The translations under genes were made by a program, and so were the position numbers. The notes beneath the pieces are model-generated. The model was not told the DNA's origin and searched no databases. It was given only the letters and a program-made list of their open reading frames with translations. A stretch of DNA of 64,000 nt from Telmatactis stephensoni (Eukaryota; Cnidaria; Anthozoa; Actiniaria; Isophelliidae): positions 409,001 through 473,000 of the forward strand of contig JALIZF010001696.1 in assembly GCA_029948255.1 (NCBI GenBank), given 5' to 3'. The stretch's first letter is position 1. Each line of letters starts with the position of its first letter. This document shows, piece by piece, positions 545-32,379 of the stretch.

Positions 545-885
545 ATTTTAACAAACTTTTCAACCAATCATAGCGCGCTTAAGGTTCTATGACGTAATCT
601 ATGCGTGTGTACTGTAATTATCTATGCGTGTGTACTGTAATTAAACACGTTTCTCGGCCAATCAGAGGGCGCGTAATATACCATTTATTATATAATAGAA
701 TACAAACGCATGGACAAATTAAATTTATTTGTTTTGTATAATATTGGTATGGAATTATTTCAACTAATCCGAGCGCGCCTAAGATTCTCTCGACGTCATC
801 TGTACGTGTGTACAGTAATAACACATTGTTCATGACCAATCAGAGCGTGCGTAATATATCAATTATTATATATATAATCATCAAA
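545..885. repeat. MITE-like repeat, 'CCAATCAGAGCGCGCGTAA' family, two units
   Basis: Two related units (about 545-690 and 740-885), each with CAACyAATC.rAGCGCGC, a GACGTCAT-like site, CGTGTGTAC and CCAATCAGAGnGnGCGTAATAT, ending in ATTATTATATA. The first unit carries a perfect 23-bp tandem duplication (598-620 and 621-643). Relatives occur at 4911-5055 and 5405-5570. Confidence 0.6.
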
Positions 886-1045
886 ATGTACGTACTTTTG
901 AACTAACTTTTTCAACTCCATTCGTTGTTGATTTGGTTTCTTTGGAGACTTCGCTGTCAAATCTTTGTTGTGGGGCAGTTGTGTGACAACTGAAGATTTG
1001 GTTGTCTGACCAGATCTGCTTCTTCCTGCGGAATGCTTTGCGTAC
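881..1045 (-). CDS. aGPCR exon 23: cytoplasmic tail and stop
   Basis: 165 nt, residues 852-905. It opens with VRKAFRRKKQIW, the basic helix-8 region of adhesion GPCRs, then a Ser/Thr-rich tail with the stop (TGA) at 881-883. Acceptor TTATTCCAG. A possible donor (AAA/GTACGT) lies five codons before the stop, so a longer tail with exons beyond the window cannot be excluded. A MITE-like repeat begins right at the stop. Confidence 0.75.
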   Translation of the reverse strand, partial: VRKAFRRKKQIWSDNQIFSCHTTAPQQRFDSEVSKETKSTTNGVEKVSSKVRTF

Positions 1046-3092
1046 CTGGAATAATTGCAAAATTGAAGAGTAAACTTTTTGAATCAGTACATTATTAATA
1101 ACAGTCACTTTAAAGGAAATTCTGGTATATCCACATCTAATCGGGATGAATCTAAAAACGCATTGCCACGTTTAGGCTGTCGTCCACACTAGATTCAAGT
1201 GCAGATAGCAAAAAAAGGAACATTTTCAAATTTTATCCGAATTATTGACGCAGCCTTGGCTATTGCAAAATAAACAAGACTTTATGCGTAGGAGAATTTC
1301 CATGCATGCATCTAAAAAAGTGTTGACAAAACAGTCGATCTATCATCATTAGGAACGCAGTTAGCAATGGTAGAATACTGCTACGATTTCCAGCTCGTGT
1401 CGCGTCTAAAAGTTGCCTAAAGAACAAAGAATAGCAAATTATTCCTTTGGCAAAATCTTACCTCAGAATTCAGTACGCAATGGAAAATGAAGATCAGAAA
1501 ACCCTGTGGAAGTGATTTGAAAAGTTTACAATACAATACAATACAATACAATACAATACAATACAATACAATACAATACAATACAATACAATACAATACA
1601 ATACAATACAATACAATACAATACAATACAATACAAATTATAGCCAAGTTATAAGACAGACTACCAGTTCAGTCCATAGAATGTATTTAGACCATCCCAC
1701 CCAACATTCTTATCGGACCCTATATTAACTTAGATCCCATTTACACTCAATTTTAATAAGAAAAATACCTGAAGAGAATTGAAGATCGCAAATAAGTACT
1801 GAAATGCCACAGTTTGGCTGTTGACTGCAAGAATACCAAACACCCAAGCGATACCAAGGATTGGTAACAAAACAATGGCCGACTTGACACCTGATCTGAA
1901 ATATCACGTGTTATTATTGATAGCAAGACTGCTTATTTATTTTATTTGCTATGTTTGTATGCTTGCAAAATGCTTCCAAATGTAGTATGGCATACGCTAT
2001 CCTCCGCAGACAACTCCTCTTGGCTCGTGGGCTTCCTGTGGCTATTTTGTCTTCATTGCCTATCCATTATCACCGCAAGATACCCAAGTTTACATCAATT
2101 AACTGTTTTAAAGGAGCGCAAATATCCAAGAAAATGACCAACAAAATTTCCCATTTTTTTTTTCCAAACCGCATCATCCTTGGCAATATATCAATTAATT
2201 TTATCTGTTTTGCCTCATACCTTGCTGTTTGTAGTTTGCTGTCGTCAGCTGGAGTGGGGTTGTGGAGCTTTAGGATCTCTCTAACAACGAGGGCAAGTAT
2301 AATAGCATTGACCTTGGAAAAAACGGCTTCGTCAGATAGAAATTTAAATTTAACATTTAATTTGCAGTTGTAACTTAACCCAAACATGCAACCCAAGCAT
2401 CTATGTTCTAGGTGAATACAACTTTATAATCAAAGTGTGTTTTATATGCTATCGGTAACTTGTACATTCACATCAATCTCACAGCTATTCCCTAACCATC
2501 CTTTCCCATATACATTTATTTCAAAAAACGTTGTACATGTCGTGGTTCAGAGCAACAAGCGTCAAGCCAAGACCGAAATGAATACTGGTTTGATTGTAAT
2601 ATATTCAAATCAGACTCGTTTCTATTGAACTAATATAATTTCAAAATGTGAACGTTTTCGTTTTCTTTGTTAGTATACCACACTCAAGTCATTATTAAAA
2701 CAAACATTAACATCAAAACCAAAAAACAAAACCTGCGCTCATTTCGGGCTTGTCTTGACGCTTGTTGCTTTGAACCGTAACAACATTTTCTGAAATAAGT
2801 GTGTAAATACTGATCTAAACACAAAGCCCATTAGAAGATCAAGGATAAGACAGGTTGTCAAATTTACCCTAGAGCATACTCCTGGACATTCCCTACATAG
2901 GGCTATATACATACCAAAACAATCACCAGAACAGGGACAGCAAAGCTCCAAATTGTGCCCTTCTCGACCGACAACCAACAGCTGCAAAAATAACATCCGT
3001 TTTAAGCAAGTTAACCTTTCGAAGTATCTTACGTGGTAGTCTTTCCCATCCTTACTCCCCTTCCATTGAGGACTGTACAAAAAAAAAAAGGA

Positions 3093-3176
<84 letters not shown>

Positions 3177-6100
3177 AAATACCTGTATTTCGTGCCATAT
3201 CCATCAAAACTAGAAACCAATGTCACAATCACTATGACTGCTGGAATACCTATAGATAATGAGAAAGAGTGTTTAAAAATGAACATATAAGAAAAATAAA
3301 ACAAGGGATGAATGGAAATTTGTAACACCGGATAAAAACAAGATACTGACGTTACTAGTCTAGGCCCTTCGTCAGAGTACAAGAAAGTGATGAATTCATT
3401 GATGGAAGACGAAGGGTCTCGGCTCAAAACCTCAGTAATTATGTTATCTCGTTTATAAGGTGTTACAGATTTCTATTCATCCCTTATTGTATCTTTATAC
3501 TGACCGACGCAGCTCAAACTAGCTAGTTCGGCACTCTTTAGTCTCCTTTAACTTCATTTAGGAAAAATTGTGCTCTTTTCTACGCTTTGCCTATCCACAT
3601 ACAGTTAAAAAAGGATTCTCACATTATAGACGGCCATCCTCTATTATATTAATTAAAATACCCTGCTCTTTAATGATTCACCGCGCATTTTTTAATTCTA
3701 GGCGGATAAAGACTCTAAGATCCACCTCAACTACCTGCCATGATCACGTGATTTTAGCTGACCTCACTTTCATGTTTAGGCCTGGTTGCATTTCAAATAA
3801 CTTCCATGGAAAAGGACAACTTACTCCAAGCAGCTATGACGTATCTTCTGATTCTGTTGTATCCCGTATCAAACACACGAACTACCATAACATACAGCCA
3901 CAATCCCTCTACAAGCATCCAGCAGAAGGCGACGAGGTTAAAAAAATGAAGGAACACTGCTACAAATGTACATACAGCCTGAAAACAAATGGGAAAACGT
4001 GATTTCGCTGTGAAAGAATGATTACTATTAGGATTGCGATAGCGAAGCTAGTGAGAAACAGGATTAGTAGGTAAAGGCCCGGACACACGGTGCTACGTTT
4101 CCCGAAATAGTTGCTGAAACACCGCGCGTAACTCGATTGCACCGTGTGTCCACCACTGAAACATCTCGTGCAATGGTGCGCGCAACAGTTCTGGACAGTA
4201 CTTGCAGAAGTAGAACTCGATCCTACTTCTGCGGCTGTTGCGCGCAACGTTTCGCGAAACATTGGAATGGGTGGACATACGCTTCAACATTGTGTTGCGC
4301 GAGATGTTTCAGCAAATGTTTCAAAAAATGTTGCACCGTGTGTCCGAGCCTTAAGAGCCGACAAAGAGTATCAGATATTTGTTTCAACTTTTGATTTCAG
4401 TATTTTATGCACTCTCAGAGGAATTTGAAATCTTACCTTGTTTGCTGTTGCATTTATACCAGACAAGAAGAAAATTTGCGCCAGGCCTAACGCAACCACC
4501 AGATTGAGATGAATCATGTTCGTCTCCGCCTTTGTTAACCTGGTAATAGTTTGTATAGTCAATTGCACAGTAAATTAATCATCAACTAATATATATTATA
4601 CAGATATTGATAGAGATCTAATTTCAATAAACGTCTATAGTGTATACATTTCTTTAGCCTGTGGCTATGGAATTAAGGGGCAAAATTGCACCCAGTAAGG
4701 TTTCAACCAGAAAGATTATTTTGAAAACTTGCAATCCAACTAACTAATAAAGATTCTACAGGATATGCCGTCTATTGAGCGCAACCACGAGACCATGAAT
4801 ACTTAACAAATAGATTCCATTTTTCCGTGCGTCTGTACTCTAATCGATGCACAGATGACGTCAAAATGTGGTGAGAACAAAAAAGTACGGAAAAATGGAA
4901 TCTATCTGTTTTATATAATATTTATCGAAACATTCCAACCAATCAGAGCGCGCGTAAGATTCGATGACGCCATCTATGTGTGTGTGCTCTAATCACACAT
5001 GGTTGTTCGACCAATCAGAGCGCGCGTAATATGCCAATTATTATATAATGCTGAATCCCGCACCCATGACGTCATATCTGACTAACGTTACGTCATACTT
5101 GAATAATGTTGCGTTATACCTTAAACATGTCAATGTGACAATAGTCAATAATTCACCAATCAGAGACAAGCTACATCCAGCATAGGTAATGGCTTCAAGC
5201 GCCTTCACGTGAGCTTTGGAGAGAGTCTGGAAAAAATAGTAATAATAATAATAAAGTTTATAAAAAGCTTATTCCATCAATCCAGCTTGTAAGATAGGTA
5301 AGGTAAGGTAAGGTATCTCAAAACGACGTTGAGTGGCATGCATGACTGATGTTTTCACCACAAGTCGACATCTTGTTTGCATGTATTGGAGAACAGACGC
5401 ACAGAAAAATGAATTTATTCGTTTTATATAATACCAAAATATCTCAGCCAATCAGAGCACATACAATGCTCTGTGACGTCATCCACCCGTCTACACTGTA
5501 ATAACACACGGTTCTCAACCACTCAGAGAGCGCGTTGTATAGCAATTATTACATAGAGCGATAACACTTAAACCGTGAAATAACTTAGCAACTAAATAGA
5601 GACAAATAGTAGCAAAACCCTTTGTATTCTATTGTTTCATTAGTACTATTTGTACTTTTTAGTTAGTACTTGAGGGTCCTGAAGGGGGGTCCAAATCCCA
5701 TTCCCAGCCTACTTTTTCATTAAAATCCCAATCCCAGTCATAAATTTCTCAAAAATCCCATTGCAGTTTCCCTTTTCACAAAGTAAGTCATAAAAATAGA
5801 CATGTGACCAGTCTCAGTCTCTCAGATGCATAATATACCGAAAAGTCCTGGGTATGATTTTTTTCTTTTTCGTTTTTTTGTGCGTCGACTTGTACGGTTT
5901 TGCAGTTTTTCAGCATCAAATCCCATTCCTATTTGATGTTCTGTTTTCCATTCCCAGTGACAAAAAATTCCCAAATCCCAGTCCCAGTACAGCAAATCCC
6001 ATTTCCCAGTCAAAAAAAACAGGCAAATCCCAGTCCCATTTTACCCCTTCAGGACCCTCGTACTTGTTTCACGGTTTTAGTGCTATCGCCCTAATTAATT

Positions 6101-9100
6101 ATATATAAGTGATACCTTTTCGTCTTCAGTAACTTTCATCAGTACAGCAAAGTTTGTCAAGTGATCACACAAGCACACGGTGTAGTTTTCATTCGATGCT
6201 TCCTCGTCTTGTCTGCAGCCCTCACTGGACCAGACACCTGTAGAATTCTCGCTACTTTTAAAGCAAAAAAAAATATATGAGCGTAACGTATATTTGACCG
6301 CTATAAAAACACACGTTTCTATAGATTATATGCTTTAATCAAAAGAACAAACAAGATGTTAGAAGAGCATGCACAAGAAAAGTGTTAGGAATCGAGTAAT
6401 GCCGAAAATGATTTTCGTGACGCGGACACAAATTCTAAAAAAAAATTGGATAAAATCAAGAAATTTACGTTTGTTAGAATGTAAACTGCATGTATATTCG
6501 AAATATCTCATGGAACAAACAAACGAAAGAAACTCGATTATCAAATATTGTAAAAAATATGGAGAGAAAATGCTGCCTGCAAAAATAAAGGATGTGAAAA
6601 AAATATGCATATATTAATAATAATTAGCTCAGAATCAATTTAAATGAAAAATAATTAGAATTAGTTTCAGGATACTTAAGAGCAAAATTCTAATTATTGA
6701 AGAACCGAGGAAAACATAAAAATGAAAAGACAAGACAAGAAGAACAAAGAAAGAAAAAAAACAAAAACAAAAAAGATTATGGCGTTGACAGGATTCGAAC
6801 CTGCAGCTAGTTGAAAGGCACCCCCCGGAAATAAAATATGTCAAAAACAAGAAAAAAAAAAATCAAAATGAAATTTTGGGACGATTCTCCCGAGACATTC
6901 AAAGAAGCTGAGACATCGAATCGACTTACGTTAAGGATGAAGATTTCGGCCCCATCCACGCTATCCCGGTGCTACATAAAAACAGTTGACTTAGCCCGAA
7001 GGCCAGGGAGGGAGACGATATCCGGACCCTAATCCATACCTTTAGATATCACCTTAGACCGCTGCGCTACCTGGACACTTAATAATTTTAATGTCTAATC
7101 GGGGTAGTCTATTCGGCGAAGTTTCATTATAATGCTAATATGCTTGTCCAAAGTCCTCTGGGAGATAACAGAACCAATCAAAGTCTAGATATATAAAGAA
7201 TAATTTTACACTAATTGGATAGAGTAAATAAAAGAATATATTTTTGGGAACATTTTTAATGCATCAAGCTCTTTCACAAAGACGTTACGGCATCGCAGAA
7301 ATCGGTTTATGGATTTTCAATCATCACTGAAGGTTAACGTAAGGATCAGCAAGCAACCACATTTCCTATTGAAGGTACTCCAGGATACGCAAGGATACTC
7401 CTTAGGCATAATCAGACGAAGGCCGAAGCTCGAAACATCAGTAAAGTTAAGTACTGTAAAGGAATTTACAATTTGGTTTTATGCTCATCATTTTGTTGAT
7501 TTTACCTGGTGATGATCAACTAGATCGAAAACGTTTGTTTTAAGATTCAACCAAAATTGTACATCATTTGTTATTATTTGTTGATCATATTCTACATCGA
7601 GAATCGAAATAAAGCAAGTACTAGAATAGTTTACTTAAACGTACGGATGCGTACTTTATCAAAAGCAATCTCATCATATACAAGTATATTATAATTTCAA
7701 ACCAAGTTTGATGCAACTAACGATATTAGTCGTATATATAATCGAGCATAAAAGCTCTGTGTCTTCAGGATTGATTTATATACCTTATCATTTCTTATAG
7801 TTTTTTATGCGATATCGGCTCGCGAGAACTCAATGTACGCGATTTGACAGAAATATTCTCCGGAATCTGATCCGTAAAGAGAAAACAGGCTGTTTAACTC
7901 AAATAATCGCAACACTGCAGATGTTAATAATGGACAAGTTTTATAAGTATAATTTCCTTTGCTCAGAGGGGAATACTTATATAATACTATAATATTTACA
8001 CACCAAATTCAAAGAGTCACTGCAGCCTTATTTTAGATATAATTTCCATCGCATTTCTTGCATGTCAACCCTTCAAAAATATAAATATCCGCTCCTCACG
8101 CACCACATATTGAAGTTCTCGCTTCTCTTTATATTTTTTATATTTCTATTTGTGCGTGTCCCGTAACGCGCTAACTAAAAATAGTCAAATCCCGCATCCA
8201 ACCAGATCAACCGACTGCGGTCAAATGTCTGCGCATGCGCGAATTTTCGCGGGCTAACGCGCGTCCGCGTCTTCATCATAGGAATCCCAAGGCAATATTT
8301 TTGAATCTTTGTTAGATTTTCTATATCATGTCTTCCAGCTTAATTTTCAGCACGCGTGCAAAAAGGAAAGTACCAGGTGAAATGGCAGGCGACAAAATAT
8401 ACTACAATGTCTTTAACTCTGGTTTTTAGGACTAAATTTCGCCTGAAAAGTTTTCTTTGTTTCACTGCCAAATGTTTTCATTGTGAAAGACTTTTCATAT
8501 GGCGCGCATGCGCGATACATTATGCCAGGTGTGCAACAGACATATTTTAGACCCTACTCCACCATAAAAAGCTGTATGTGCACAAAAGAGCACTGAGACC
8601 TTCACTGGAAATTTTTGCACATTCCCTATCATTTGAACTGGACAACATCTTCCTAAATATTTCCTAGATATTTCCTGCCGTAGTAGATTGCATTTTCTTA
8701 GATATTTCAGGAAATATCTAGGAAAAGGCAATTTCCTACGCGGTAGGAAATATCTAAGAAAATGCATTTTCCTATTATAGGAAATATTTAGGAAAATGTA
8801 TTTTCGCATTTTTTTCCAGTAAATGTTCCTACTATAGGAAAATTCCATTTTTCTATATATTTTCTACGTATTTCCTATGATAGGAAATGAGGAAAAATTT
8901 TGTCTGCGCGCACCACCGTACGGAAAATCTTTGACATTAAAATGCCTAAAGGTGGGAAAACACGTAATATCACGTGTCGTGCATTTCTCAGTCTCTTGTT
9001 TAAGTTCTTTTGTGTGGGTCTGCAAATGAATGATCTGACATTCATTTTAAGCATATATAACCACAGTAAAAATATCTCTTATAGCACGCAAAACTTACTG

Positions 9101-11137
9101 CTTTTTGGATTTTACTTTGGAATTAAGCATCCACAAGCGCACATTCTTAAACTGACTTTGTGAAATTAACTTACCTTGCGGTAAAATTCCAGAAAACACA
9201 CAGCATCGATTGCTCTTTGGATCTTTTAAACTAAATTATAAGAAAGAATGGCTCAATATAGAAGAATTAATGATTTTGAGATCAGGGGAAACAGATAGTG
9301 TCAAAATTGACAGACGTTTTTGTGTAGCAGGAACTACTTCTCGATCTGATTGACATTTTTCTATATGAACCAGCTTTTCGCATTACAGGGGAAAAGTACA
9401 TTGACATTTCCAATGGGATTAGATAAGAGCTCTAAACTCGTTACTAGTCTTTGAGTACCATTTGCAGCCGCAATGGAGTTCGGGAAGGAAAGCACCGCCC
9501 GTTCAGCGCGAGTCTAGTAAGAGAAGGTGCTTCAGCGACGGTCACTCGGCGGAAAGGATAATGTTGACATGTTACATAGGGATTGATTTTAAATTAGAGC
9601 AAGTAATCGAGGCCATAGAAAAATATACCCGTAAATTTTTATAAGAGGTTGGTCGCGTCAATTGTTGATTATTTTATTTGCAAAATGTAAGCTACTTACT
9701 CTTTTGTGCTGTAGCCTTAGTCGTACTGATTCCTTTTCCAGAGCTTTAGGAGGTGGAGTAAGAGAGCTTGTTATTATTCGACTATTAAGGAAAAACTTTC
9801 CTTTCTCGTTTCTGAAAGAGTAATTCAAGAGACAGTTTGTTCAATCTTGTGAAAACATGAAGGAAAATAAGTCTACTCAAGCATAATTATAACCGAAAGA
9901 TAGAATGAACGAATGAATGAATGGATGGATGGACTGAATGAAATATAAAACTCACCCAGCCACTGTGGAGATATTCCCTCGTAAAATGTCGTCTAGATTC
10001 TTATAAAGAGAACTGAAGACAAAGTAATCTCCTACAAGACAAAACAAATTCAGTTCAAACAAACTTGGTCACCAATCAGGTTTATCACTAAATTTTGGGA
10101 CTGCTTTTGACGACGTCACTTACTCGTGTCTGATTGGCTCTTTTGTATGCTTATTTCGTCATTTGATTCAAACGACGCTTGTCGATTTTTATCGGGAAAG
10201 ACGAAGTTATTTCCGAGCTTTTTTATCTGTAGCACTGAAAAAATAAATTTAAAATTTAATTAACGTACAGTAGATTTTAGACATTTGGCTAGGTGGAAGT
10301 ACTGCGGTGAATAGTAATTGTAGACGTACAGAAATGCTAAAAGGTTTAGAGCTCAAGCAGTCCAAACTGGTCAGCGGTTACGTTAGCCATGTGTGCGTGC
10401 GCCTCCATAAGGGATGCTTACTTTATCTCGTCCTTTCTCTTGTTGTTAAGAGTCTTGCTTTTTCAAAACGATTATTGAATTAAGTATATTCTTGTACTTA
10501 TTCGCGTGGTGTGCCAGCGTTTGGGTACCCAAGTAAGTAACACAATGAATAAGACGAGACAAGCATGGGGCGTCCCACATGGTGGTGCACGCTCACGTGA
10601 CTAATGCCGGCAAAGCGTTCAACTATACATCGACTTGGACTTCCTGTGGAATTATTAAAAAAGTGTCATACTTATGTTAGGGTATTCCTCAACAATTGGC
10701 TGTGAACTCTGATTTAGTTGTTCTGCCACTATGTTCCCAAGTTGTTCAACTTCCAATGCTACCTCTAATCCAGCATCATTTTGCTCCACTGGGTCAGACT
10801 CATCGAGGAGAAAAGTTATCTTTCTTGCTGCTGTCTAAAAAGTCATGAAGATCTAGCTTTTCTTAATTATTTAGTGATAGTTGTTTTGCTTCTAGCCTTT
10901 TTCTGCTTCCTCCTATCGCTCCTCTTTCTTAAATTTGTGACGCGCTGTGCAACAACTCATCTGTTCAAATCGAGCTCGGCTAAATAATGACACATGATTT
11001 TATATCCCTCCAACGATCGGCCCCTTCCCCAAAATACATTTTGAATTAACTCCTTAATTTTTTACTATCTTTCTATAAATTTCTTACCATCTTTCACTCA
11101 GTCCCATCTTTCTTGTCTTCAGTCCCTCAGTTTTTTT

Positions 11138-11197
<60 letters not shown>

Positions 11198-11201
11198 TAT
11201 T

Positions 11202-11277
<76 letters not shown>

Positions 11278-16954: not shown

Positions 16955-16985
<31 letters not shown>

Positions 16986-25900: not shown

Positions 25901-28900
25901 AAAACTCCCCCGGCCGGGCCATTTGCTGTTTCAAAAATTCCATCAAGAGCAAAGATAGGATTAAAGCGATGTCCTCTCGAGAAAATTGTCCGGGCTATCA
26001 AAGAATATTTTATGAGTCTATTTTCCATTGAATCGTCAAACACGGTATTGATGTCTAGATGTATGGTTCATGGATCTACGTACTCAGAACAAAAGACAGT
26101 GCACGTAAAACAAAAATCAGTCGGATAAGTACTAGGATAGACAAGTTTTACAATATTGTAAGATTCTAGTTCCATTCAATCATCACAGATCAAATAACAA
26201 AATGTCATGTCCTAACTAACGTGACAATTTGAAGTATCAATACGTGTGGTACGGTAAACATTTTGTTACTTCATGTGTATCACCTGCTTGTTGTTTGATT
26301 GAATATCATTTTACAGCTAGCACAGTGTATTCCTCTTCAATTTATAAACATAACGAAAGAAAGAAAGAAAGAAACAGAAAGAAAGAAAGAAACAGAAAGA
26401 AACAGAAAGAAACAGAAAGAATCAAAGGGGGAAAGAAAGAAAGAGAAAGAAAGAAGGAAGGAAGGAAGGAAAGAAAGAAAGAAAGAAAGAAACAGAATGA
26501 AAGAGGGAAAGAAAGAAAGAAAGAAAAAACAAAATTAAAAAAAGACTGTACAATTGAAAAAAACGCTTGTTTTAAATCAAATAAATGTTTGTGGGTTGCA
26601 GTGAATTTCTTTAATTTGCTACTTCAACCCTGTGTTTTTAGGTAAAAAGGTAGGGTTGAAGTAGCAAATTAAAGAAATTATGTACATTTGTTTTATGCGT
26701 CAAATAAATTCGAAACTCTGTATATTTTTGTGTTTGAGACTCGCTAAATGTTTTCGTGGGGAATCCCACTTCTCCCTCTGTATATATTTGACATTCTCTA
26801 AGGCCAACACCAATCTATGACGGACACTTCTCTACAGTTCGATTGAGATCCAAGAGCATAGTTAATAGAGGGGACTGGTTATGAAGCCTTTTGTTATGTC
26901 TTTGTTCATTTTTTTCAACCGTGACCGTGCACAAATCTTTTATTTTTTCATTGTTTCGCCTTAATTGCCATGGTTGAGCAACTGAACCCAAATGTTTCTT
27001 TTCCGCTGCTTGTTCGATGTATTCTAGTTCAAAATTAATTATATTAGAATATTTCAATAAATAATCCAATAGACAACATTTCGGTTCATTCATATAGCCA
27101 TTTTCTAATGAATTTAAACAAACTTTGTGCACGGTCAAGACCAGTTCAACATCCAGACTAGAACAAAGAAATGTAACAAAAGGCTTCCTAACCATTCCCC
27201 TCTATTAACTATGCCAAGAGTGACCTCACTATACAGTGAATACCCATGCCAAAGTTCAATATTTATTGCCAGTGACCGTCCTCGGAGACCCAGGGCGTCA
27301 GGGAGGGGGAGGGGAGGGCCGAGGGGAAGGGAAAGAGGGCAAAAGGACCTGCTATTTGTTGCAGCGGAATCACCAGCGCGATGCAAAAAGTTGATTGTAT
27401 ATATGCAAAAATATGTAGTGAAATAGACATTTCATTTATATTTCTTTCGGTGAAACTTTGGCGCCAGTGAACTACGCTCTACCTTTTGTACCTGACAAGT
27501 TAGGAAATTGCGGGCAAAATACTGTTATTTTGTATCGGTTTTCAAAAAAGATGCTTTGATTGCCTGCATACCCGTTACAATAGAGGGATTTCATAGAAAG
27601 TTTTTAAATAACAAAAGATTTTATTTCTCTTGGGAGAAAATCACTATTATTTTGACCACAAACATGTCTGCCGTGAAATCACTCTATATTGTGAAGTATC
27701 AATTCGTTTGAGTCATTTAATATTTGAAAAGTGTTTGAGTCGTTTGAGTCATTCAATATTTGAAAAGTGTTTTGACATTGGTTATTTTTGCTAGAAAACA
27801 TGTAAGCAATGCAAATATTATATTATATTATATTTACTCCTGGCGCAAGCACAATAGTTTTGGCCGCCAACACGTATTTTAGTAAGAATACATGAACCTC
27901 AATTCATAATCTGTATTATAAAAACAGACACACAGAAAGGGTTGCGTTCTGCTGTTTTGTAATTCATTTATTCATTCATTTTTAAATCTCATTCGTCCGT
28001 CCATGTGTCTGTCTGTCTGACTGACTGACTGAGTGACTGACTGACTGACTGACTGACTGACTGACTGACTGACTGACTGACTGACTGACTGACTGACTGA
28101 CTGACTGACTGACTGACTGACTGAACTTTCTCATCAAATATCTCGAAAAGTAAATTCTAAAATGCAGTAATTAATAAATTGTATGTTCAAAGGCAGGCTA
28201 AATAATGTATTTCTAAAGAGACACTGTAACTACACAGCAGCCAGTATCGAGATTTTCAAGGTACCCGTTAGGGGGAGGGGGTGGGGAATGTATCGGGTCC
28301 CTACGTACGTTGTTTTGACCTCTTCCCTTATCACAATTACGAGGCTCATATACACCTCCAGCAACGGAAGGCAGTGAGGACATGGACGTCGCGAGTGAAC
28401 TCTTCCTTCTTAAAGTGTGCGTTCTGAATTGTCATCCTCAAGGTTTTAGTTACAAAAAAGAAAAAAAAAGAAAAGGAAAAAAAAAAAAAGCAAAGCAAAG
28501 CAAAGGAAAAGAAAAAAGAAAAAAGAAAAAGAAAGAGGGCAACAAAGGCCCACCCGCAAAGCTCGTGACGTCCGCGTCGTCATCACTTTTTTGCCTATGC
28601 GTACGAGATTTCGCCGCACATTTTACCTTTAATTGATTACTCACCGATGTGCCATTCATTGCCAAACCGGTTTGACAGGTTTTGAATTTCATCCTTGATA
28701 AATTCCCACTCTTCCTTCGTTTCCATAGAAACCAAGTTCCCTTGGAGTTTCTTACATCTATGATGGTTTTTGTTCCAGGTGCTTCCATTTTGAAAGAAAA
28801 GGTATCCTCTGTCAAGACGGTTCTTTATAACTGAAACCCAAATATATGACGGTGAGTTTTAGATGAGTTTTATAAAAAAAACGTACAGTGAAGGAGCGAG

Positions 28901-31900
28901 ATCTTGGCCTCCTCGGATGATAGCTCTTAGCTAATGGGGTTCCTGTGGCAGCTCATTAGTTAAAAGCTTGTCATCCTTCTTTCCTTGTTTTTTTCCATTC
29001 TTTTCATCTTATTCCTTTTTTTTCTTCCCTCCCTTCCTTCTTTCCTTCCTCCCTTCCCCTCCCTTCATTTCTTCCTTTCCTTCCCTACTTCCTTCCTTCC
29101 TCCTTTCCCTCCCTTCATTCCTACTTTCCTTTTTTTTTCCTTTCCTTTTTCTTCATTCCCATTACGAGCTTCTGTTTTAAAACCAAATCTTGACTGGTCG
29201 TCGATTTAACTTTCGGAACATAGCTATATGCGTGGAGTTCTTCATAGGCCCATACAATCTTTGCTCTATATCATTATGTTATTACATGTAATCAAGAATG
29301 CTTCTGTACCTACCTGGTTGCTCTGCTAACGTCGAAGAACTGCACATCAGATATAACTGAAAGAGATTTAAAAAACTCCTATTCACTACTTTCACATGCC
29401 CCATAATGCCTTTTGTTTTTTAGGGCAACTATTATTACGCAAAACAAGCAAAATGGCGTCGATGACAAAGCAGCATAAAATCTCATAAAAATGTTTACAC
29501 AATGACAAAACCAAAACTCAAAACAACCCTACAAACCTCTTGTAGATAATTTTGAAAAATCTTATTTCCAAAAAAAAAAAAAAAAACCAACAACAACAAC
29601 AACAACACAAACCAAAACAACAACAACAACAACAACAAAACGTCTATCTAAATGCTAGCTGCCCCCCAAAGCGCAAGGCATTATGGACATGTGAAAGTAG
29701 GGAATATTCATGCGAGCATCGTTCATAATGGATTACAAGCTTTGTAAAAGTTTACGATATTGTAAACTTGTAAATTAATTTTTTTCAATATTTTGGATTG
29801 GGTGGTTTTTATATCAAAATGATGCCTTCTCCTACGTCATCTTATTTGCATTTTGAGATTGGAAACTTTTATATATTGCAAAATATGGAGTAAGATATCA
29901 GAAAATATGGAAACATTTTCACTATGCTTTCTAAAAAGAATAGGCGTTATGCACTAACAGGTCACGTGACCCTATCCCCTAAATCAAGCAGCACGGTCAA
30001 AATGAACTCCAAAAAAAAAAGAGCACCTCGATATTAGTTTAAATATAAAGTTTCAGTTTATAGGATGAATGAGAGAAAAAATGACAGCAAATTTAAGGTG
30101 AGATATTTTCTTAAAATTCCTTCAGGAAAACGCGTTGGATGGCACGAGCTTGCCATCCAGTGCATTTTTCAAAACGAATCTTAAGAAAATCCCCAATCTT
30201 AAATTCATTGTCATTTGTCCTGTATTACATCTTATGAGCTGAAACTTTGTTATTTTACTAATATTGAGACGCTCTTTCCATTTCTGCAGTTCATTTTTAC
30301 GGTGCTGCTTGATTTATGGAAGATAGGGTCACGTGACCTGTTAGAGCATATTGCCTATTGATTTTCAAAATTCAAAAAATGTGTCATAGACACTTTAATT
30401 CTGAACATAATTTATTGCATATTGCATAAGGAAAACATTTCAATGCTTTTGTTACTCGTGCCACTGAGAAGCCATTTCAGTGCATTAGTCACTATGGTAT
30501 CATACTGATGAGAAGCCGGATAATTAGATAAAAGTAGTTGTTTTAGTGTTTTAATGATTCTTTTCAAACCACTGGGAACCCGTTTCAATGTCGTGATATG
30601 AGATTCTGAGTACTTGTTGATATTGTCATTGTAAATAGAAAACTCTCCTTGCTCCGCCCAGTTCATTTCAAACTTGTGACACTAAAATGAAGTTCGAAAC
30701 TTTTCCACTTTTGTTCTCTCTATATGTAAATGCGCTTTGCTGCTTATTATATCAGTTTATTATATATCAGCTGTTTATTTAATATCAGTCATATTGAATA
30801 CGAAACTTATTTACCATAAATTTTGAAGCGAAAACCAAACTCTGGAGGAACAGCAAAAATTCTTTTCCTCTTCTTAACTTGTGGATGCTCAAAGAAGTGT
30901 CGAGACGAGTTATCGAGAAGTTCTACTATTGTCAAATCTTTTCCGCTCCGAGTTCCGGTCCATTGATTCGTTCCTCTTAATATAATGTATTTCCACTTCA
31001 CTCGCTTTTCAGCGCCGAAAAATTAAGACAGTTTTAATGAATATAAGTAAAGTATTAGAAATGAATTCACTGTCTAGTTCAAATAGAAACGTAAAAATGC
31101 TGGTTAATTTCCGTGAGTTTTTTCAAGTTTCTATTCTTAAACAATGTGAAAAAGAATGTGCATGCGTCCCAGAAACTTTAAATTCCAAAATGCTTATGCG
31201 CCAAGCTGCTTTGAGCATGACTGTCTGTTTATCAATATAGATCCTCTAAATTTTGTCATATCTTAATATATAATTAGTTCAAATGTATATGCTAAATTCT
31301 GTCAAGCCAAAAGGCAATCCGTCGGCACAATATCCCCGAAAGAATATGTTTTGCCTATGAATATTGTTTTTACATTAATTACATTAATACATGAATTTGT
31401 GTTTTTTACAACTTTGGCTGTGGCTTATGAGAAAAAAAATCCGGAAAACGAAGTGCAAATCGTTGACTCCGAACTGCAGCCATGCCAAAATGGCGATCAC
31501 ATTTCGTTATTCGTTATCGTAGCCTATTCTAGTTTCCATACTTTTTTAGGAATTGTGTCAAGATTTAGACCAAAATCCATATAAATTAATATCCTTGACA
31601 ATTAGTAAATTTGTATAGACATCGTTCTGCACTACTCTATTTCGTTGTACAATGTTTACATTTTTAATACGTGTTTCTTGAAAGGCTCTGTTGGTATCTT
31701 CTCAATCAATAAATATTTGCCATGTCTCTATTTATGGGATTTGTATGTAGTGAAATTGTTTTAAGGCTATTTTAATGACAGCACAAGAGACCTTTAAGGG
31801 AATATTAAACTTCCCTTTCAACATCAACCTTATCGATAACATATAATGATCTTTTTTCTCATTTCTATTTATGATATAATGGTTTAGAAAACTGTTATGA

Positions 31901-32379
31901 TATGATTGCAGCACAAGAAACATCTTGCAGCATTTTCATTTAAGAGTATATTTATCACTTTATATCTAGGATCACCAAGTTGTTTACAGAAACCATAATC
32001 GTTAGCAAAACTATTATCAATAATAGAACATCCTGCAGAATTTTTTTTTGATTTTTAAACGTTTAAACGTCTTGTTTTCTACTATATATCTATCAACGTT
32101 TTTTATCACCAAGTTATTTACACAGCCATCATTAAAACAATATCAACGTATGAAGCAGTTTTAAGATGGCATACTTCTCTTACCATAATTTTACAAAATT
32201 TTGTAAAAAAATTACACAATTTTACATAAAATTTACCAAATTTAAAACCGAGAAATTTAACGCCTTTTTTCGTTATGTGACTAAAACTAATCTACACAAT
32301 GTATTTGTATTTTCAACTTTAAATATTTCCTTACCTGAATTAAAATTACGCAGAGAATAGCCACCCTGACAGTCACCAT
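881..32379 (-). CDS. Adhesion GPCR (CTLD-PA14-GAIN-7TM), gene span of 23 coding exons
   Basis: Predicted cell-surface receptor of the adhesion GPCR class. The joined exons give 2718 nt, or 905 residues. Domain order is signal peptide (1 to about 25), C-type lectin domain (about 37-163), PA14 domain (about 171-320), GAIN domain (about 345-598) with the GPS, 7TM domain (about 603-850) and a cytoplasmic tail of about 55 residues. Cleavage is expected between Leu584 and Thr585, giving a 584-residue N-terminal fragment held non-covalently on a 321-residue 7TM fragment whose new N-terminus (TNFAVLM) would be the tethered agonist. All 22 introns are GT..AG and all phases match, which is strong internal support. 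The 7TM motifs resemble latrophilins (ADGRL), but the ectodomain does not, so I give no symbol. Start: ATG at 32377-32379, the first codon of a hydrophobic leader. The exon 4 to exon 5 join is the least certain; see the alternative exons at 19091-19319. Confidence 0.85.
1462..1503 (-). CDS. aGPCR exon 22: 42-nt microexon, end of TM7
   Basis: 42 nt, phase 0 to 0, residues 838-851: GFLIFIFHCVLNSE. It is part of the conserved 'LQG.fIFiFhcvln.eVr.af' block, which is split over three exons here. Skipping it would keep the frame but remove half of TM7. Acceptor TTCCACAG, donor GAG/GTAAGA. A pure ATACA tract lies in the preceding intron, 27 nt upstream of the acceptor. Confidence 0.9.
1531..1636. 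repeat. Microsatellite (ATACA)n, about 21 copies
   Basis: A pure pentanucleotide run in the intron before exon 22, within 30 bp of its acceptor. On the minus strand it reads as a TGTAT-rich tract. Confidence 0.98.
1769..1895 (-). CDS. aGPCR exon 21: transmembrane helix 6, loop and start of TM7
   Basis: 127 nt, phase 2 to 0, residues 795-837: VKSAIVLLPILGIAWVFGIL, then QYLFAIFNSLQ. This is the latrophilin-like TM6 ('LLPlLG.tWvFG.l') with the Trp of the toggle motif, followed by the beginning of TM7. Acceptor ATTTCAG, donor CAG/GTATTT. Confidence 0.93.
2221..2312 (-). CDS. aGPCR exon 20: end of TM5 and intracellular loop 3
   Basis: 92 nt, phase 0 to 2, residues 765-795: VNAIILALVVREI, then the loop LKLHNPTPADDSKLQTAR. 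The 'N..i....vi..i' pattern ends TM5. Acceptor TTTTTTCCAAG, donor AAG/GTATGA. Confidence 0.88.
2915..2981 (-). CDS. aGPCR exon 19: extracellular loop 2 and start of TM5
   Basis: 67 nt, phase 2 to 0, residues 742-764: SCWLSVEKGTIWSFAVP then VLVIVL. Cys743-Trp744-Leu-Ser is the conserved ECL2 motif (CWLs...g.iW.F..P). Acceptor TTTTTGCAG, donor TTG/GTATGT. Confidence 0.92.
3091..3179. repeat. Microsatellite (GAAA)n, about 22 copies
   Basis: Pure tetranucleotide run ending three bases from the TM4 exon donor. On the transcribed strand it is a TTTC tract starting within the first bases of intron 18. Confidence 0.98.
3183..3249 (-). CDS. aGPCR exon 18: transmembrane helix 4
   Basis: 67 nt, phase 1 to 2, residues 720-742: SIPAVIVIVTLVSSFDGYG, like the family's 'G.PaiiV.it......gYG'. 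A (GAAA)n microsatellite sits three bases past the donor (ACAG/GTATTTTC). Confidence 0.9.
3303..3485. mobile_element. MITE family C, copy 1 (terminal inverted repeats)
   Basis: The left end AAGGGATGAATGGAAATTTG and the right end TTTCTATTCATCCCTT are inverted; GTAACACC faces GGTGTTAC. Two more copies lie at 15014-15195 and 21891-22034. Non-coding, inside intron 17. Confidence 0.7.
3825..3978 (-). CDS. aGPCR exon 17: transmembrane helix 3 and intracellular loop 2
   Basis: 154 nt, phase 0 to 1, residues 669-720. AVCTFVAVFLHFFNL then FCWMLVEGLWLYVMVV is the family TM3 signature (F.WML.EG..LY). Cys671 is the TM3 end of the disulphide to extracellular loop 2. ICL2 is FDTGYNRIRRY. Acceptor GTTTTCAG, donor A/GTAAGT. 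Confidence 0.92.
4073..4352. mobile_element. MITE with TIR 'AAGGCCCGGACACACGGTGC'
   Basis: The end AAGGCCCGGACACACGGTGC is mirrored by GCACCGTGTGTCCGAGCCTT. The interior holds further mirrored GTTGCGCGCAAC-type pieces. 280 bp, in intron 16 between the TM2 and TM3 exons. ORFs on both strands here are by-products of the palindrome. Confidence 0.8.
4437..4539 (-). CDS. aGPCR exon 16: transmembrane helix 2
   Basis: 103 nt, phase 2 to 0, residues 634-668. It contains NMIHLNLVVALGLAQIFFLS, a near-textbook adhesion GPCR TM2 ('hlnL..al.laqilFL.g'), followed by GINATANK. The TM1-TM2 intracellular loop (RLTKAET) is short, as usual. Donor AAG/GTAAGA. Confidence 0.92.
4805..4910. mobile_element. MITE with TIR 'AACAAATAGATTCCATTTTT'
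   Basis: 106-bp element with ends AACAAATAGATTCCATTTTT and AAAAATGGAATCTATCTGTT in inversion. A relative with the same ends lies at 49829-50012. In intron 15. Confidence 0.7.
4911..5055. repeat. 'CCAATCAGAGCGCGCGTAA' family unit
   Basis: Contains two CCAATCAGAGCGCGCGTAA boxes flanking GATGACGCCATC and a TGTGTGTGCTCTAATCACA segment, as in 545-885. It directly abuts the MITE at 4805-4910 and ends about 65 bp from the TM1 exon. Confidence 0.6.
5120..5226 (-). CDS. aGPCR exon 15: transmembrane helix 1
   Basis: 107 nt, phase 0 to 2, residues 599-634. ALEAITYAGCSLSLIGELL is TM1, matching the family's 'l..It.vG..iSl..ll.ti.tf'. Acceptor TTTTTTCCAG, donor AAG/GTATAA. The intron that follows is full of MITE sequence. 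Confidence 0.88.
5405..5570. repeat. 'CAATCAGAGCGCGCG' family unit, diverged
   Basis: GAATTTATTCGTTTTATATA, AGCCAATCAGAGCAC, GTGACGTCATCCACCC and CTCAGAGAGCGCGTTGTATA follow the same order as in the other copies. Intron 14. Confidence 0.5.
5558..6089. mobile_element. Outer MITE of a nested pair
   Basis: The left end GCGATAACACTTAAACCGTG and the right end CACGGTTTTAGTGCTATCGC are inverted. The element is split by the inner insertion at 5672-6059. Lies just downstream of the GPS exon in intron 14. Confidence 0.65.
5672..6059. mobile_element. Inner MITE with target-site duplication GTACTT
   Basis: TIRs GAGGGTCCTGAAGGGG and CCCCTTCAGGACCCTC, flanked on both sides by a perfect GTACTT (5666-5671 and 6060-6065). 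The interior is built from many copies of the phrase AAATCCCA/AATCCCAGTCCC. No coding capacity. The clean duplication shows it inserted into the outer MITE. Confidence 0.85.
6116..6254 (-). CDS. aGPCR exon 14: second half of the GPS, cleavage site and tethered agonist
   Basis: 139 nt, phase 2 to 0, residues 552-598. It reads TGVWSSEGC, then YTVCLCDHLTNFAVLM. His583-Leu584-Thr585 is the intact autoproteolysis triplet, so cleavage falls at 6158/6157. TNFAVLM is a standard tethered-agonist (Stachel) start. Cys565, Cys579 and Cys581 are the other GPS cysteines. Donor AAG/GTATCA. Confidence 0.92.
6790..7075 (-). repeat. tRNA-derived SINE-like element
   Basis: On the minus strand, GTAGCGCAGCGGTCTAAGG (Pol III A-box-like, 5' half of a Leu/Ser-type tRNA) lies at about 7050-7070. 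Some 250 nt further on, GCAGGTTCGAATCCTG (B box) is followed by TCAACGCCA and a T run. The two boxes are too far apart for a functional tRNA. Confidence 0.45.
8640..8890. repeat. Dyad-rich patch of TTTCCTA/TAGGAAA motifs
   Basis: At least ten alternating copies of TTTCCTA(G/C) and TAGGAAAT, several forming direct hairpins, such as the two facing each other around 8705-8760. No ORF. Possibly a decayed palindromic element. Confidence 0.6.
9175..9230 (-). CDS. aGPCR exon 13: first half of the GPS (CVFWNF)
   Basis: 56 nt, phase 0 to 2, residues 534-552. It contains LCVFWNFTA, the opening of the GPCR proteolysis site; Cys544 and Trp547 are canonical and Cys544 should pair with a downstream GPS cysteine. 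The acceptor (ATTTAG/TTT) is the first in-phase choice; a second AG six bases further on is out of phase. Donor AAG/GTAAGT. Intron 13 (6255-9174) splits the GPS motif. Confidence 0.85.
9700..9781 (-). CDS. aGPCR exon 12: GAIN subdomain B strands
   Basis: 82 nt, phase 2 to 0, residues 506-533: RIITSSLTPPPKALEKESVR, then LRLQHKR. This corresponds to the GAIN-B strands 'viS.sl......l..pV.l.f.H' that come just before the GPS. Acceptor CCTTAATAG, donor AGA/GTAAGT. Confidence 0.8.
9956..10031 (-). CDS. aGPCR exon 11: GAIN subdomain B
   Basis: 76 nt, phase 1 to 2, residues 481-506: RDYFVFSSLYKNLDDIL and onward. This is the GAIN-B strand usually reading 'vvfv.y.nL...L'. Acceptor GTCTTGTAG, donor GG/GTGAGT. 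Intron 10 is the shortest of the gene (92 nt). Confidence 0.8.
10124..10234 (-). CDS. aGPCR exon 10: GAIN subdomain A/B
   Basis: 111 nt, phase 1 to 1, residues 444-481. It reads LQIKKLGNNFVFPDKNRQ and then a segment ending in SQSDT. It matches the GAIN pattern of a first beta strand ('i..v.....f.fP') followed by a polar loop. Acceptor TTTTTTCAG, donor A/GTAAGT. Confidence 0.75.
10672..10834 (-). CDS. aGPCR exon 9: GAIN subdomain A helices
   Basis: 163 nt, phase 0 to 1, residues 390-444. It has an acidic linker (ITFLLDESDPVEQND) and then LEVALEVEQLGNIVAEQL, the typical GAIN-A helix that in other family members reads 'll..ve.lg..la..l'. The donor AA/GTATGA is the weakest of the gene, yet the phase fits exon 10. 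Confidence 0.75.
11137..11279. repeat. Microsatellite (TTTC)n, about 35 copies
   Basis: Almost pure tetranucleotide run with one ATTT interruption, in intron 8. Confidence 0.98.
11326..11421 (-). CDS. aGPCR exon 8: start of GAIN subdomain A
   Basis: 96 nt (32 codons), phase 0 to 0, residues 358-389: LKGVKTVLKNLQSDV and onward. This amphipathic helical stretch fits the helical GAIN-A subdomain. Acceptor GTTACAG, donor AAA/GTAAGT. A long (TTTC)n tract lies about 45 nt downstream of the donor. Confidence 0.7.
12309..12394 (-). CDS. aGPCR exon 7: linker between PA14 and GAIN
   Basis: 86 nt, phase 1 to 0, residues 329-357. It reads DLPGKDCTKEGDSRFPNYLN and onward, with two cysteines likely to pair. 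I recognise no domain; it probably bridges PA14 and GAIN. Phases fit both neighbours. Donor AAG/GTACAT. Confidence 0.7.
12726..12907 (-). CDS. aGPCR exon 6: PA14 domain, C-terminal part
   Basis: 182 nt, phase 2 to 1, residues 268-329. It continues with SKKQFLQEGKLYYMEVLLKQ, the PA14 strand that normally reads 'L.aG..Y.i.v.y.e', then LQTGVILPKSGTIYTIIPEDY. Acceptor TTTGTAG, donor G/GTAAGT. Confidence 0.85.
13199..13313. repeat. Long near-perfect hairpin, about 55-bp arms
   Basis: Left arm 13199-13253 and right arm 13258-13313, with only a 4-base loop (CGCA). TTTATTTGGGCTTCCTGTGT faces its complement almost without mismatch. Intron 5. It could be a MITE or a source of a long dsRNA hairpin. Confidence 0.85.
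13502..13575. repeat. Hairpin, about 31-bp arms
   Basis: CAGACTCAACATTGCATTTT and AAAATGCAATGCTGAGTCTG are inverted across an 11-base loop. Intron 5, about 190 bp from the hairpin at 13199-13313. Confidence 0.8.
13685..13976 (-). CDS. aGPCR exon 5: PA14 domain, main part
   Basis: 292 nt, phase 1 to 2, residues 171-268. The sequence has the PA14 beta-barrel pattern: VFAELWNNISGYQVHLL near the start, a YPNNPT segment, FGIRMRSYFLAP, then GNFTFFVKCDDECQVFLS, the hallmark 'y.F.i..dD...lyl' strand. PA14 domains are extracellular carbohydrate- or ligand-binding modules in adhesins, glycosidases and fibrocystin-like proteins. Several N-glycosylation sequons (NIS, NFS, NFT). Acceptor CTCCCTAG, donor AA/GTAAGG. 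Confidence 0.85.
14218..14271. repeat. Short hairpin
   Basis: GATATGCTTGGAGTGTGG faces CCTACACTCAAAGCATATC with a short AT-rich loop. Intron 4. Confidence 0.6.
14481..14641. mobile_element. Palindromic MITE
   Basis: Arms of about 75 bp: AAATCGCACGATCTTCTCGT at the left, AAGATCGTGCGATTT at the right, with CTCAAATAGGACTCG and CGTCCTATTTTGAG facing each other around a short loop. Intron 4. Confidence 0.8.
15014..15195. mobile_element. MITE family C, copy 2
   Basis: CATCTGTAACACCGTATGAA at the left and ATTCGGTTTTACAGCCATTC at the right, with a central inverted pair GACGTTTCGAGCCTG / AAGGCTCGAGGCGTC. Same plan as 3303-3485. Confidence 0.65.
15345..15520. repeat. TGCGGTTTT-rich tract
   Basis: About a dozen irregularly spaced copies of (T)GCGGTTTT on the plus strand. 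It looks like a degenerate minisatellite; the minus-strand ORF through it (Asn/Lys/Arg-rich) is an artefact. Confidence 0.75.
16931..17041. repeat. (CAAAA)n-type simple repeat
   Basis: Imperfect A-rich run of CAAAA and CAA units. Confidence 0.9.
17105..17165. repeat. (TTAACTTT)n simple repeat
   Basis: Seven to eight units of TTAACTT(T)(T). Confidence 0.85.
19091..19121 (-). CDS. Candidate alternative second exon (31 nt, phase 0 to 1)
   Basis: Strong acceptor (TTTTTACAG) and donor (AAAG/GTATGA) enclose 31 nt reading IFFSRCGECK plus one base. The phases fit exactly between the leader exon at 19248-19319 and the PA14 exon. The segment would extend the hydrophobic leader and add two cysteines. 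Confidence 0.4.
19248..19319 (-). CDS. Candidate alternative first exon with its own signal peptide (intron 4)
   Basis: The ATG at 19317-19319 is directly preceded by an in-frame TGA. The 72 nt encode a charged N-terminus (MKSNSDDFETG) followed by a hydrophobic run (TFLVVVALLLCIE), ending in phase 0 at GAG/GTTAGT. With the 31-nt exon at 19091-19121 it repeats the phase plan of exons 1-2 (phase 0, then 0 to 1) and splices in frame onto the PA14 exon, giving a receptor of about 769 residues without the lectin domain. It may instead be the true start of a separate receptor gene, or a chance hydrophobic ORF. Confidence 0.45.
20579..21123. mobile_element. 545-bp element with long terminal inverted repeats
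   Basis: GTTAAAGTGCACCTAACCCC and CTGTTATTTCCAATTTTGA at the left are mirrored by TCAAAATGGGAAATAACAGTG and GGTTAGTTGCATTTTAAC at the right. The centre is a tight hairpin (GACGTCACACTCTTTGTAC and its complement) near 20938-20978. Intron 4, no ORF. Confidence 0.8.
21440..21510 (-). repeat. SINE-like fragment with Pol III B box
   Basis: On the minus strand: TGGAGGGTCGTGGGTCCGAT, then TCCCGCTGGGGGCTCGGATT. The GGGTCCGATTCCC core is a B box. No A box found nearby, so truncated. Confidence 0.45.
21891..22034. mobile_element. MITE family C, copy 3
   Basis: ATGGAAATCTGTAACACCGT at the left, TTGTTACAGTTTTTCATTCA at the right, with central AATCGCTCGAAACGTAAGTA. Shares ends with 3303-3485. Confidence 0.7.
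22053..22336. repeat. Tandem duplication, 149-bp unit
   Basis: Two nearly identical copies (from 22053 and from 22202), each starting TGACGCAGCCAAAACTACTT and ending near AATAAACATTG. The small ORF across the junction is a result of the duplication. Confidence 0.9.
22923..23106. mobile_element. Palindromic MITE, about 75-bp arms
   Basis: GTGCTATGTTGAGTTATAGA at the left faces TCTATAACTCAACATAGCAC at the right, and GGAATTGTAAGAAGAC faces TCTTCTTACAATTCC. GC-rich loop near 23015. Confidence 0.85.
23333..24065. mobile_element. Composite MITE with TIR 'GGGCCCTAAAATCGCC'
   Basis: Ends CGGGCCCTAAAATCGCC and GGCGATTTTAGGGCCCG. Next to the left end lie many GGCGATCTT(A/G)GG repeats. A second inverted element (23490-23620) is nested inside. 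Confidence 0.75.
23490..23620. mobile_element. Nested palindrome with ends ACACGGTG / CACCGTGT
   Basis: Left ACACGGTGGCGCGAAGATAT, right ATCTTCAAGACACCGTGT; the centre is GAAATATTTCACGAGTGAGC with mirrored CGAACGAGTGAAATATT. Sits inside the element 23333-24065. Confidence 0.7.
24923..25159 (-). CDS. aGPCR exon 4: C-type lectin domain, C-terminal half
   Basis: 237 nt, phase 1 to 1, residues 92-171. It shows the lectin core: WYWVTG, then QPSGDGKCANI, GGFNDLPC and GYICEV. Cys131-Cys149 is the second conserved disulphide and Cys161 pairs back to Cys55. The sugar and calcium site is altered: QPS (124-126) stands where EPN or QPD is usual, and FND (144-146) replaces WND, so classic Ca-dependent sugar binding is uncertain. 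The donor CAG/GTAAGA is near-perfect. If it were not used, the frame would read on for 28 codons to a TGA at 24840-24842, making a secreted lectin instead. Confidence 0.85.
25560..25670. mobile_element. MITE family E, partial copy
   Basis: GGAATTTCGAATGTTTTTGT, then CACGCCACTGACACGG, then CACTCATACG: the diagnostic blocks of the family seen at 48901-49047. The left end is eroded. Intron 3. Confidence 0.5.
25841..25864. repeat. Poly-G run, 24 bases
   Basis: An uninterrupted G homopolymer within a GA/GGGGA-rich patch (25740-25890). Length is likely unreliable in any assembly. Confidence 0.95.
26350..26535. repeat. Imperfect (GAAA)n purine tract
   Basis: GAAA units mixed with CAGAAAGA, GGGGGAAA and GGAA units. 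ORFs with Lys/Glu/Arg repeats arise from it. Confidence 0.95.
26856..27214. mobile_element. 359-bp element with about 55-bp TIRs
   Basis: GCATAGTTAATAGAGGGGAC at the left mirrors CCCCTCTATTAACTATGC at the right; GAAGCCTTTTGTTA faces TAACAAAAGGCTTC. Inside, GTGACCGTGCAC and GTGCACGGTCAAG are also inverted. Intron 3. Confidence 0.8.
27581..27687. mobile_element. MITE family D, copy 1 (shortened)
   Basis: TAGAGGGATTTCAT at the left, GACCACAAACATGTCTGCCG and TGAAATCACTCTA at the right; the left arm has lost the GGCAGCCATGTTTGTGG block present in the other copies. Confidence 0.65.
28018..28125. repeat. Microsatellite (GACT)n, about 26 copies
   Basis: Nearly pure tetranucleotide run preceded by a short GTCTGTCT tract. 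Intron 3. Confidence 0.98.
28450..28535. repeat. Purine-rich tract
   Basis: AAAG/AAAAG/CAAAG units about 110 nt downstream of the lectin exon 3 donor. It explains the Lys- and Phe-rich ORFs here. Confidence 0.85.
28645..28830 (-). CDS. aGPCR exon 3: C-type lectin domain, N-terminal half
   Basis: 186 nt, phase 1 to 1, residues 30-92. It carries the opening of a C-type lectin-like fold: GYLFFQNGSTWNKNHHRC, then LQGNLVSMETKEEWEFI (first strand, helix 1 with Cys55, the loop and helix 2). Cys55 should pair with Cys161 in exon 4. Acceptor TTTCAG, donor G/GTGAGT. An N-glycosylation sequon (NGS) lies just before Trp48. Confidence 0.85.
28975..29160. repeat. Pyrimidine-rich (TTCC)n-type tract
   Basis: Irregular TTCC/CCCTTCC units on the plus strand, in intron 2 between exons 2 and 3. 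Confidence 0.85.
29314..29356 (-). CDS. aGPCR exon 2: signal peptide, second half
   Basis: A 43-nt exon, phase 0 to 1, with acceptor TCTTTCAG and donor CAG/GTAGGT. It reads LYLMCSSSTLAEQP. Joined to exon 1 it completes a signal peptide with likely cleavage near SSSTLA/EQ. It links exon 1 (phase 0) to the lectin exon (phase 1), which no other short open segment in the area does as well. Confidence 0.65.
29573..29640. repeat. Poly-A followed by (AAC)n
   Basis: A run followed by AAC/CAACAA trinucleotide units, intron 1. Confidence 0.9.
29940..30359. mobile_element. 420-bp imperfect palindrome
   Basis: AATAGGCGTTATGC and CTAACAGGTCACGTGACCCT at the left mirror GGGTCACGTGACCTGTTAG and GCATATTGCCTATT at the right. 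Central GGATGGCACGAGCTTGCCATCC is a tight hairpin. Each arm is about 200 bp. Intron 1. Confidence 0.8.
30815..31004 (-). other. Possible cryptic or alternative exon in intron 1
   Basis: 190 nt open in phase 0 to 1, the same phases as exon 2, with donor ATG/GTAAAT and a weak acceptor (CTGAAAAG). It would encode 63 residues rich in Lys/Arg and aromatics (for example VKWKYIILRGTNQWTG). It could replace exon 2 in frame but would lose the end of the signal peptide. I do not recognise the sequence, and chance is likely. Confidence 0.2.
32335..32379 (-). CDS. aGPCR exon 1: start codon and signal peptide, first half
   Basis: Codes for 15 residues, MVTVRVAILCVILIQ, and ends in phase 0 at a strong donor (CAG/GTAAGG). 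The stretch is hydrophobic and continues in exon 2 to a small-residue cleavage region, the usual make-up of a secretory signal peptide. The first intron is long (29357-32334). Confidence 0.7.

Follow-up and report, generated by a model that had tools for sequence, protein, structure and literature searches.

The window, by which is meant the whole 64-kb stretch of Telmatactis stephensoni DNA analysed here, carries on its minus strand a gene that we read, with a probability of roughly 0.85, as encoding an adhesion G protein-coupled receptor (GPCR) that contains a tethered agonist, is gated by a C-type lectin domain (CTLD) and a PA14 domain borne on phase-1 exon cassettes, and belongs to a hexacorallian clade. 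For many adhesion GPCRs no ligand has been established, and the present receptor, whose two ectodomain modules come from sugar-binding families and which anemones and reef corals apparently share, is a candidate sensor. Should it bind glycans, it would connect extracellular glycans directly, and in a way open to experiment, with G-protein signalling in animals that rely on the recognition of algae, microbes and settlement surfaces.

Gene structure

The gene was built independently from splice signals and reading frames and then corrected with sea anemone homologues, principally the predicted proteins of Actinostola sp. (P0001) and Actinia tenebrosa (P0002). It runs from 32379 to 881 on the minus strand as 23 exons encoding 915 residues, with no internal stop and a single terminal one; all 22 introns of this model are GT-AG and their phases match. 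The preliminary description had placed the gene at 881..32379. Its strand, its ATG at 32379 and its stop codon, which ends at 881, are those of the independent model, as is its agreement of exon phases throughout. Its single open frame likewise stands, its length of 905 residues being ten shorter than that found here. An initial model of 858 amino acids lacked the GAIN exon at 10672-10834, which the anemone homologues revealed; this shorter model served as the query of the first homologue search, of the first PDB match search and of the Pfam scan to E 1. With that exon (exon 9) present and exon 10 re-cut, the Pfam match to GAIN rose from 14.9 to 30.1 bits.

The exons, all on the minus strand, are described below with the percentages of their matches to homologues. 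Exon 1 (32335..32379) holds the start codon and the first half of the signal peptide, ending in phase 0 at the donor CAG/GTAAGG, and exon 2 (29314..29356) the rest of the signal peptide and a short linker, ending in phase 1. Neither is matched by a homologue, and exon 2 was the sole above-threshold candidate exon in 28820-32340, where it was found in two frames. The CTLD occupies exon 3 (28645..28830; first half; Pfam; P0002 57%) and exon 4 (24923..25159; second half, with QPSGDGKC and FND; Pfam; P0001 71%, P0002 59% and Pocillopora P0078 50% over 46 amino acids), both of phase 1-1. The PA14 domain occupies exon 5 (13685..13976; first part, with CDDEC; Pfam; P0001 49%, P0002 47%) and exon 6 (12726..12907; second part; Pfam; P0001 45%), which together form a phase 1-1 cassette. 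Exon 7 (12309..12394; P0001 54%, P0002 61%) is a linker ahead of GAIN with Cys335 and Cys349. There follow GAIN subdomain A in exons 8 (11326..11421; P0001 53%) and 9 (10672..10834; P0001 69%), further GAIN sequence in exon 10 (10124..10234; P0001 60%) and subdomain B in exons 11 (9956..10031) and 12 (9700..9811). Exon 13 (9175..9230) holds the first half of the GPS (CVFW), and exon 14 (6116..6254; Pfam; P0001 61%, P0002 72%) continues the GPS with the HL/T cleavage site and the putative tethered-agonist sequence TNFAVLMKVT.

In the remaining exons, for which transmembrane (TM) numbers were assigned by eye in exons 15-22, TM1 lies in exon 15 (5120..5226), TM2 in exon 16 (4437..4539), TM3 with the start of TM4 in exon 17 (3825..3978) and TM4 in exon 18 (3183..3249). 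Exon 19 (2915..2981) carries the second extracellular loop (CWLS) and TM5, exon 20 (2221..2312) the end of TM5 and the third intracellular loop, exon 21 (1769..1895) TM6 and the start of TM7, exon 22 (1462..1503) TM7, and exon 23 (881..1045) the cytoplasmic tail and stop. Exons 11, 12 and 15-23 are drawn from the gene model together with tblastn.

In all, 20 of the 23 exons are matched by P0001 or P0002 in tblastn. Exons 1, 2 and 13 have no such match of their own; exon 13 nevertheless aligns to the homologues in a five-member protein alignment and is also seen by Pfam. The prediction is least secure at the precise N-terminus, exons 1 and 2 coming from splice rules only. Four sets of open reading frames were rejected as exons: those at 9236-9513, GAIN-like by eye, reach stops before the GPS exon, and those at 20780-21028, 17853-18311 and 30807-31022 are matched by none of P0001, P0002 and the Nematostella protein P0003 in tblastn. 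A tblastn search of the window with 13 query proteins (E 1e-3) yielded matches solely on the minus strand and within the gene. Long microsatellites with units of 4-5 bases (96-100% matching) occur in introns of the gene at 1527-1636, 3080-3178, 11132-11279 and 28009-28124, and also at 63334-63489; a 118-base unit is repeated about 7.7 times at 57374-58288, outside the receptor gene.

Domain architecture and affinities

Along the 915-residue protein Pfam finds, each above its curated cut-off, Lectin_C (residues 46-162; 39.5 bits, 1e-09), PA14 (191-309; 7.9e-06, with 26.2 bits against a cut-off of 24, which it thus passes by 2.2 bits), GAIN (416-523; 30.1 bits, 3.9e-07), GPS (553-600; 60.9 bits, 1.7e-16) and 7tm_2, a class B2-type 7TM (617-851; 207.8 bits, 2.1e-61). 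A GAIN domain with a GPS motif thus lies directly ahead of the 7TM, the arrangement that defines an adhesion GPCR. All four core cysteines of the CTLD are present (Cys 55, 131, 149 and 161), and the GPS reads CLCDHL/TNFAVLM (H593-L594/T595) with its own four cysteines. The CTLD, the intact GPS and the order of all five domains were therefore correctly recognised in the preliminary description. When the five members of the protein alignment were scanned at E 0.01, PA14 was matched in four and the related GLEYA model in all five; Lectin_C was matched in only two because P0001 is partial and two Nematostella proteins have no CTLD. A query of 281 residues, comprising the linker and GAIN, aligned over residues 15-276 to the GAIN domain of ADGRL3.

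The 7TM had been called latrophilin-like, a loose description: among solved structures its best PDB match is ADGRD1/GPR133, the latrophilins scoring below it, and in the tree, which contained no latrophilin rows, the gene groups with anthozoan receptors (clade support 100/98). There it is sister to the Actinostola protein (99/94), which by itself points to a sea anemone as the source of the DNA, seven bivalve and hemichordate receptors falling outside the anthozoan clade. Structure alignment of the P0002 model also matched its 7TM to ADGRD1. Latrophilin (ADGRL) ectodomains carry a rhamnose-binding lectin, olfactomedin or HormR domain, and Pfam matched none of these three in the 858-residue model (to E 1) or the 915-residue model (to E 0.01). 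The ectodomain differs also from that of vertebrate ADGRD1, where PF13385 (laminin-G/pentraxin type) appears in most of the ADGRD1 rows listed, without CTLD or PA14; no Pfam match to PF13385 was found in either model of the window receptor.

An AlphaFold model of the Actinia homologue P0002 made with 55 sequences had a mean pLDDT of 75.5. In it the PA14, GAIN and 7TM regions are mostly above 80, PA14 appearing as a strand-rich segment with block values of 74-95, whereas the CTLD does not exceed 60 in any block of ten, so that the CTLD fold rests on sequence. Superposition on inactive CD97 covered positions 360-882 of the model; the rmsd was 15.6 Å for 474 residues, a value that could arise from two hinged domains. 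The lack of CTLD or PA14 chains among the VIA-align rows is uninformative, since those rows cover mainly the 7TM.

Homologues and precedents

Among the matches listed, the closest proteins are those of the sea anemones Actinostola (P0001; 71% identity over 90% of the query) and Actinia (P0002; 62% over 98%). Both are predicted proteins that carry CTLD (partial in P0001), PA14, GAIN, GPS and 7TM in the order of the window receptor, so that the same domain order does exist in other metazoans. P0002 bears the name 'adhesion G protein-coupled receptor L2-like', and the names of the homologues are in general generic or absent: the CTLD-PA14-GAIN-7TM architecture is already in the sequence databases under generic names. 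Among the papers listed from the open-licence PMC literature, no title concerned P0001 or P0002.

A CTLD on an adhesion GPCR has precedents. Of 36 placozoan CTLD receptors, 28 are secretin/adhesion-family GPCRs (PMC6321704), and amphioxus adhesion GPCRs include a Lectin C-type domain (PMC2246102). These receptors, and predicted ones from bivalves and hemichordates, resemble the window receptor in having a CTLD on a GPS-7TM; they differ from it in that no PA14 figures in the passages describing them or in the Pfam columns listed, the placozoan ones being set apart by description. PA14 on an adhesion GPCR was not found in print in the open-licence PMC literature. The preliminary description knew of no adhesion GPCR with such an ectodomain; for the CTLD alone, PMC6321704 and PMC2246102 supply precedents, and its combination with PA14 would be an addition to the CTLD-bearing adhesion GPCRs already known.

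The combination appears to extend to Pocillopora meandrina, by taxonomy a stony coral, whose protein P0078 starts inside the CTLD, of which it has the second half only, directly before PA14. Compared within a set of 12 proteins, its CTLD is 50% identical to that of the window receptor along 46 residues (E 5.7e-10); adhesion GPCRs of bivalves and hemichordates reach 23-28% there in their best CTLD matches. Since CTLD and PA14 occur together in a stony coral, the gene predictions suggest that this receptor architecture is probably older than the anemone-coral split, with later loss or skipping. Absence from the homologue searches is weak evidence, because the second search did not list Nematostella proteins found in two others and one listing comprised the best 120 of 1470.

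Proposed mechanism and ligands

The ectodomain would comprise signal peptide, CTLD, PA14 and GAIN/GPS, and it most likely undergoes self-cleavage at HL/T while remaining bound to the rest of the receptor. Binding of a ligand to the CTLD and/or PA14, or a pull on them, would then expose the tethered agonist TNFAVLMKVT, which in turn would activate the ADGRD1-like 7TM and with it G proteins. We infer self-cleavage, tethered agonism and G-protein coupling from the adhesion GPCR family; PDB titles include ADGRD1 structures with miniGs and miniG13. A Montipora member of the family (P0082) has HL/A in place of HL/T around residue 476 and may not self-cleave.

Canonical sugar-binding CTLDs carry EPN or QPD, plus WND. 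This EPN/QPD plus WND calcium-site motif is absent from the window CTLD, which has QPS and FND; the Pocillopora CTLD has EPS and YND. We infer only, and with little evidence, that glycans might be the ligands of the CTLD and PA14, as the preliminary description had suggested. An alternative that we place a little below even odds is that both modules recognise proteins on adjacent cells or in the matrix, the receptor then being an adhesion and force sensor, not a glycan sensor. The non-canonical QPS/FND would suit such a role, as would the fast change of PA14, and there is a parallel in the lectin-like domain of latrophilin, argued to bind non-carbohydrate ligands (PMC2430599). Identity between the window and Actinostola proteins is 49% for PA14 (77/157), against 73% for the CTLD (52/71 aligned) and 92% for the 7TM (237/258 aligned), which makes PA14 the fastest-changing of these domains. 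This might reflect either a module that faces variable partners or weak constraint, and the position of PA14 as the least conserved domain does not suggest one fixed ligand. Set against a purely adhesive role, however, is the retention of specific residues, a pattern suggestive of selection on metal or sugar sites. The Pro-Ser-Gly-Asp-Gly and Asn-Asp of the CTLD are kept from anemones to Pocillopora (there as EPS), and the CysAsp[Asp/Asn]-x-Cys motif of PA14 is present in all 15 relatives examined, 13 having Asp-Asp and two Asp-Asn. The window receptor itself has the Asp-Asp pair (CDDEC); an Asp-Asp calcium pair is characteristic of the PA14 domains of yeast adhesins.

The junction of CTLD and PA14

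A receptor gated by both modules presupposes that exon 4 is spliced to exon 5. This join, made in the preliminary description, recurs as the same junction in the proteins predicted for Actinia tenebrosa and Actinostola. We consider it improbable that a secreted CTLD protein and a PA14-GAIN-7TM receptor, as two genes or alternative transcripts, have been joined only by the gene model. The intron between exons 4 and 5 is admittedly long, at 10,946 bases (13977-24922), and coral isoform X2 and Nematostella proteins have PA14 without a CTLD; the predicted proteins of Actinia, Actinostola and Pocillopora (P0078) nonetheless join CTLD to PA14, being gene predictions that could share an error. A pseudogene or assembly artefact, for which nothing speaks beyond low-complexity introns, is hardly credible in view of 23 open exons, intact splice sites and a 7TM 92% identical to that of Actinostola.

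Exon cassettes

Phase 1 introns lie at all three borders, namely signal peptide/CTLD, CTLD/PA14 and PA14/GAIN. Since such introns bracket both the CTLD and PA14, either could be gained, lost or skipped without frameshift: computed skips of exons 3-4, 5-6 and 3-6 keep the frame and leave 774, 757 and 616 residues, respectively. Taken alone this is unremarkable, because the frame survives in 72 of the 231 contiguous exon skips. The cassette reading gains weight, at the level of predicted proteins, from relatives in which the region ahead of GAIN varies. The coral isoform X2 proteins P0079, P0080 and P0081 pass from signal peptide to PA14, with no Lectin_C match to E 1, and Montipora P0083 passes from signal peptide directly to the GAIN linker. 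In the Nematostella 'aGPCR L4 isoform X2' (P0003), a member of the same clade, PA14 adjoins GAIN as in the window receptor, but there are two PA14 stretches (the motif occurs twice, and both match exon 5 by tblastn) and no CTLD, the second PA14 standing at the position of the CTLD in other anemones. The anthozoan paralogues P0084 and P0087 also have PA14 before GAIN-7TM, scoring 23.4 and 24 bits where the cut-off is 24, and the chitin-binding module CBM_14 replaces the CTLD; CBM_14 exceeds its cut-off in P0084 and narrowly misses it in P0087. PA14 fell below the Pfam cut-off in all six coral clade members scanned. In precomputed Pfam annotation CBM_14 occurs also on the anthozoan adhesion GPCRs P0085, P0086 and P0090.

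The gene illustrates how phase-1 exon cassettes can build up the ectodomain of an adhesion GPCR. A bolder proposal, which we regard as speculative and rather unlikely, is that hexacorals have kept an ancient GPCR with an ectodomain of in-frame lectin cassettes, in which CTLD, PA14, neither or, in paralogues, some other module may be present, and that alternative splicing tunes which glycans on the surfaces of prey, microbes, algae or settlement substrates would open the same tethered-agonist switch. A study of coral larval proteomics lists adhesion GPCRs among planula-enriched proteins and terms one of them aboral (PMC12960093).
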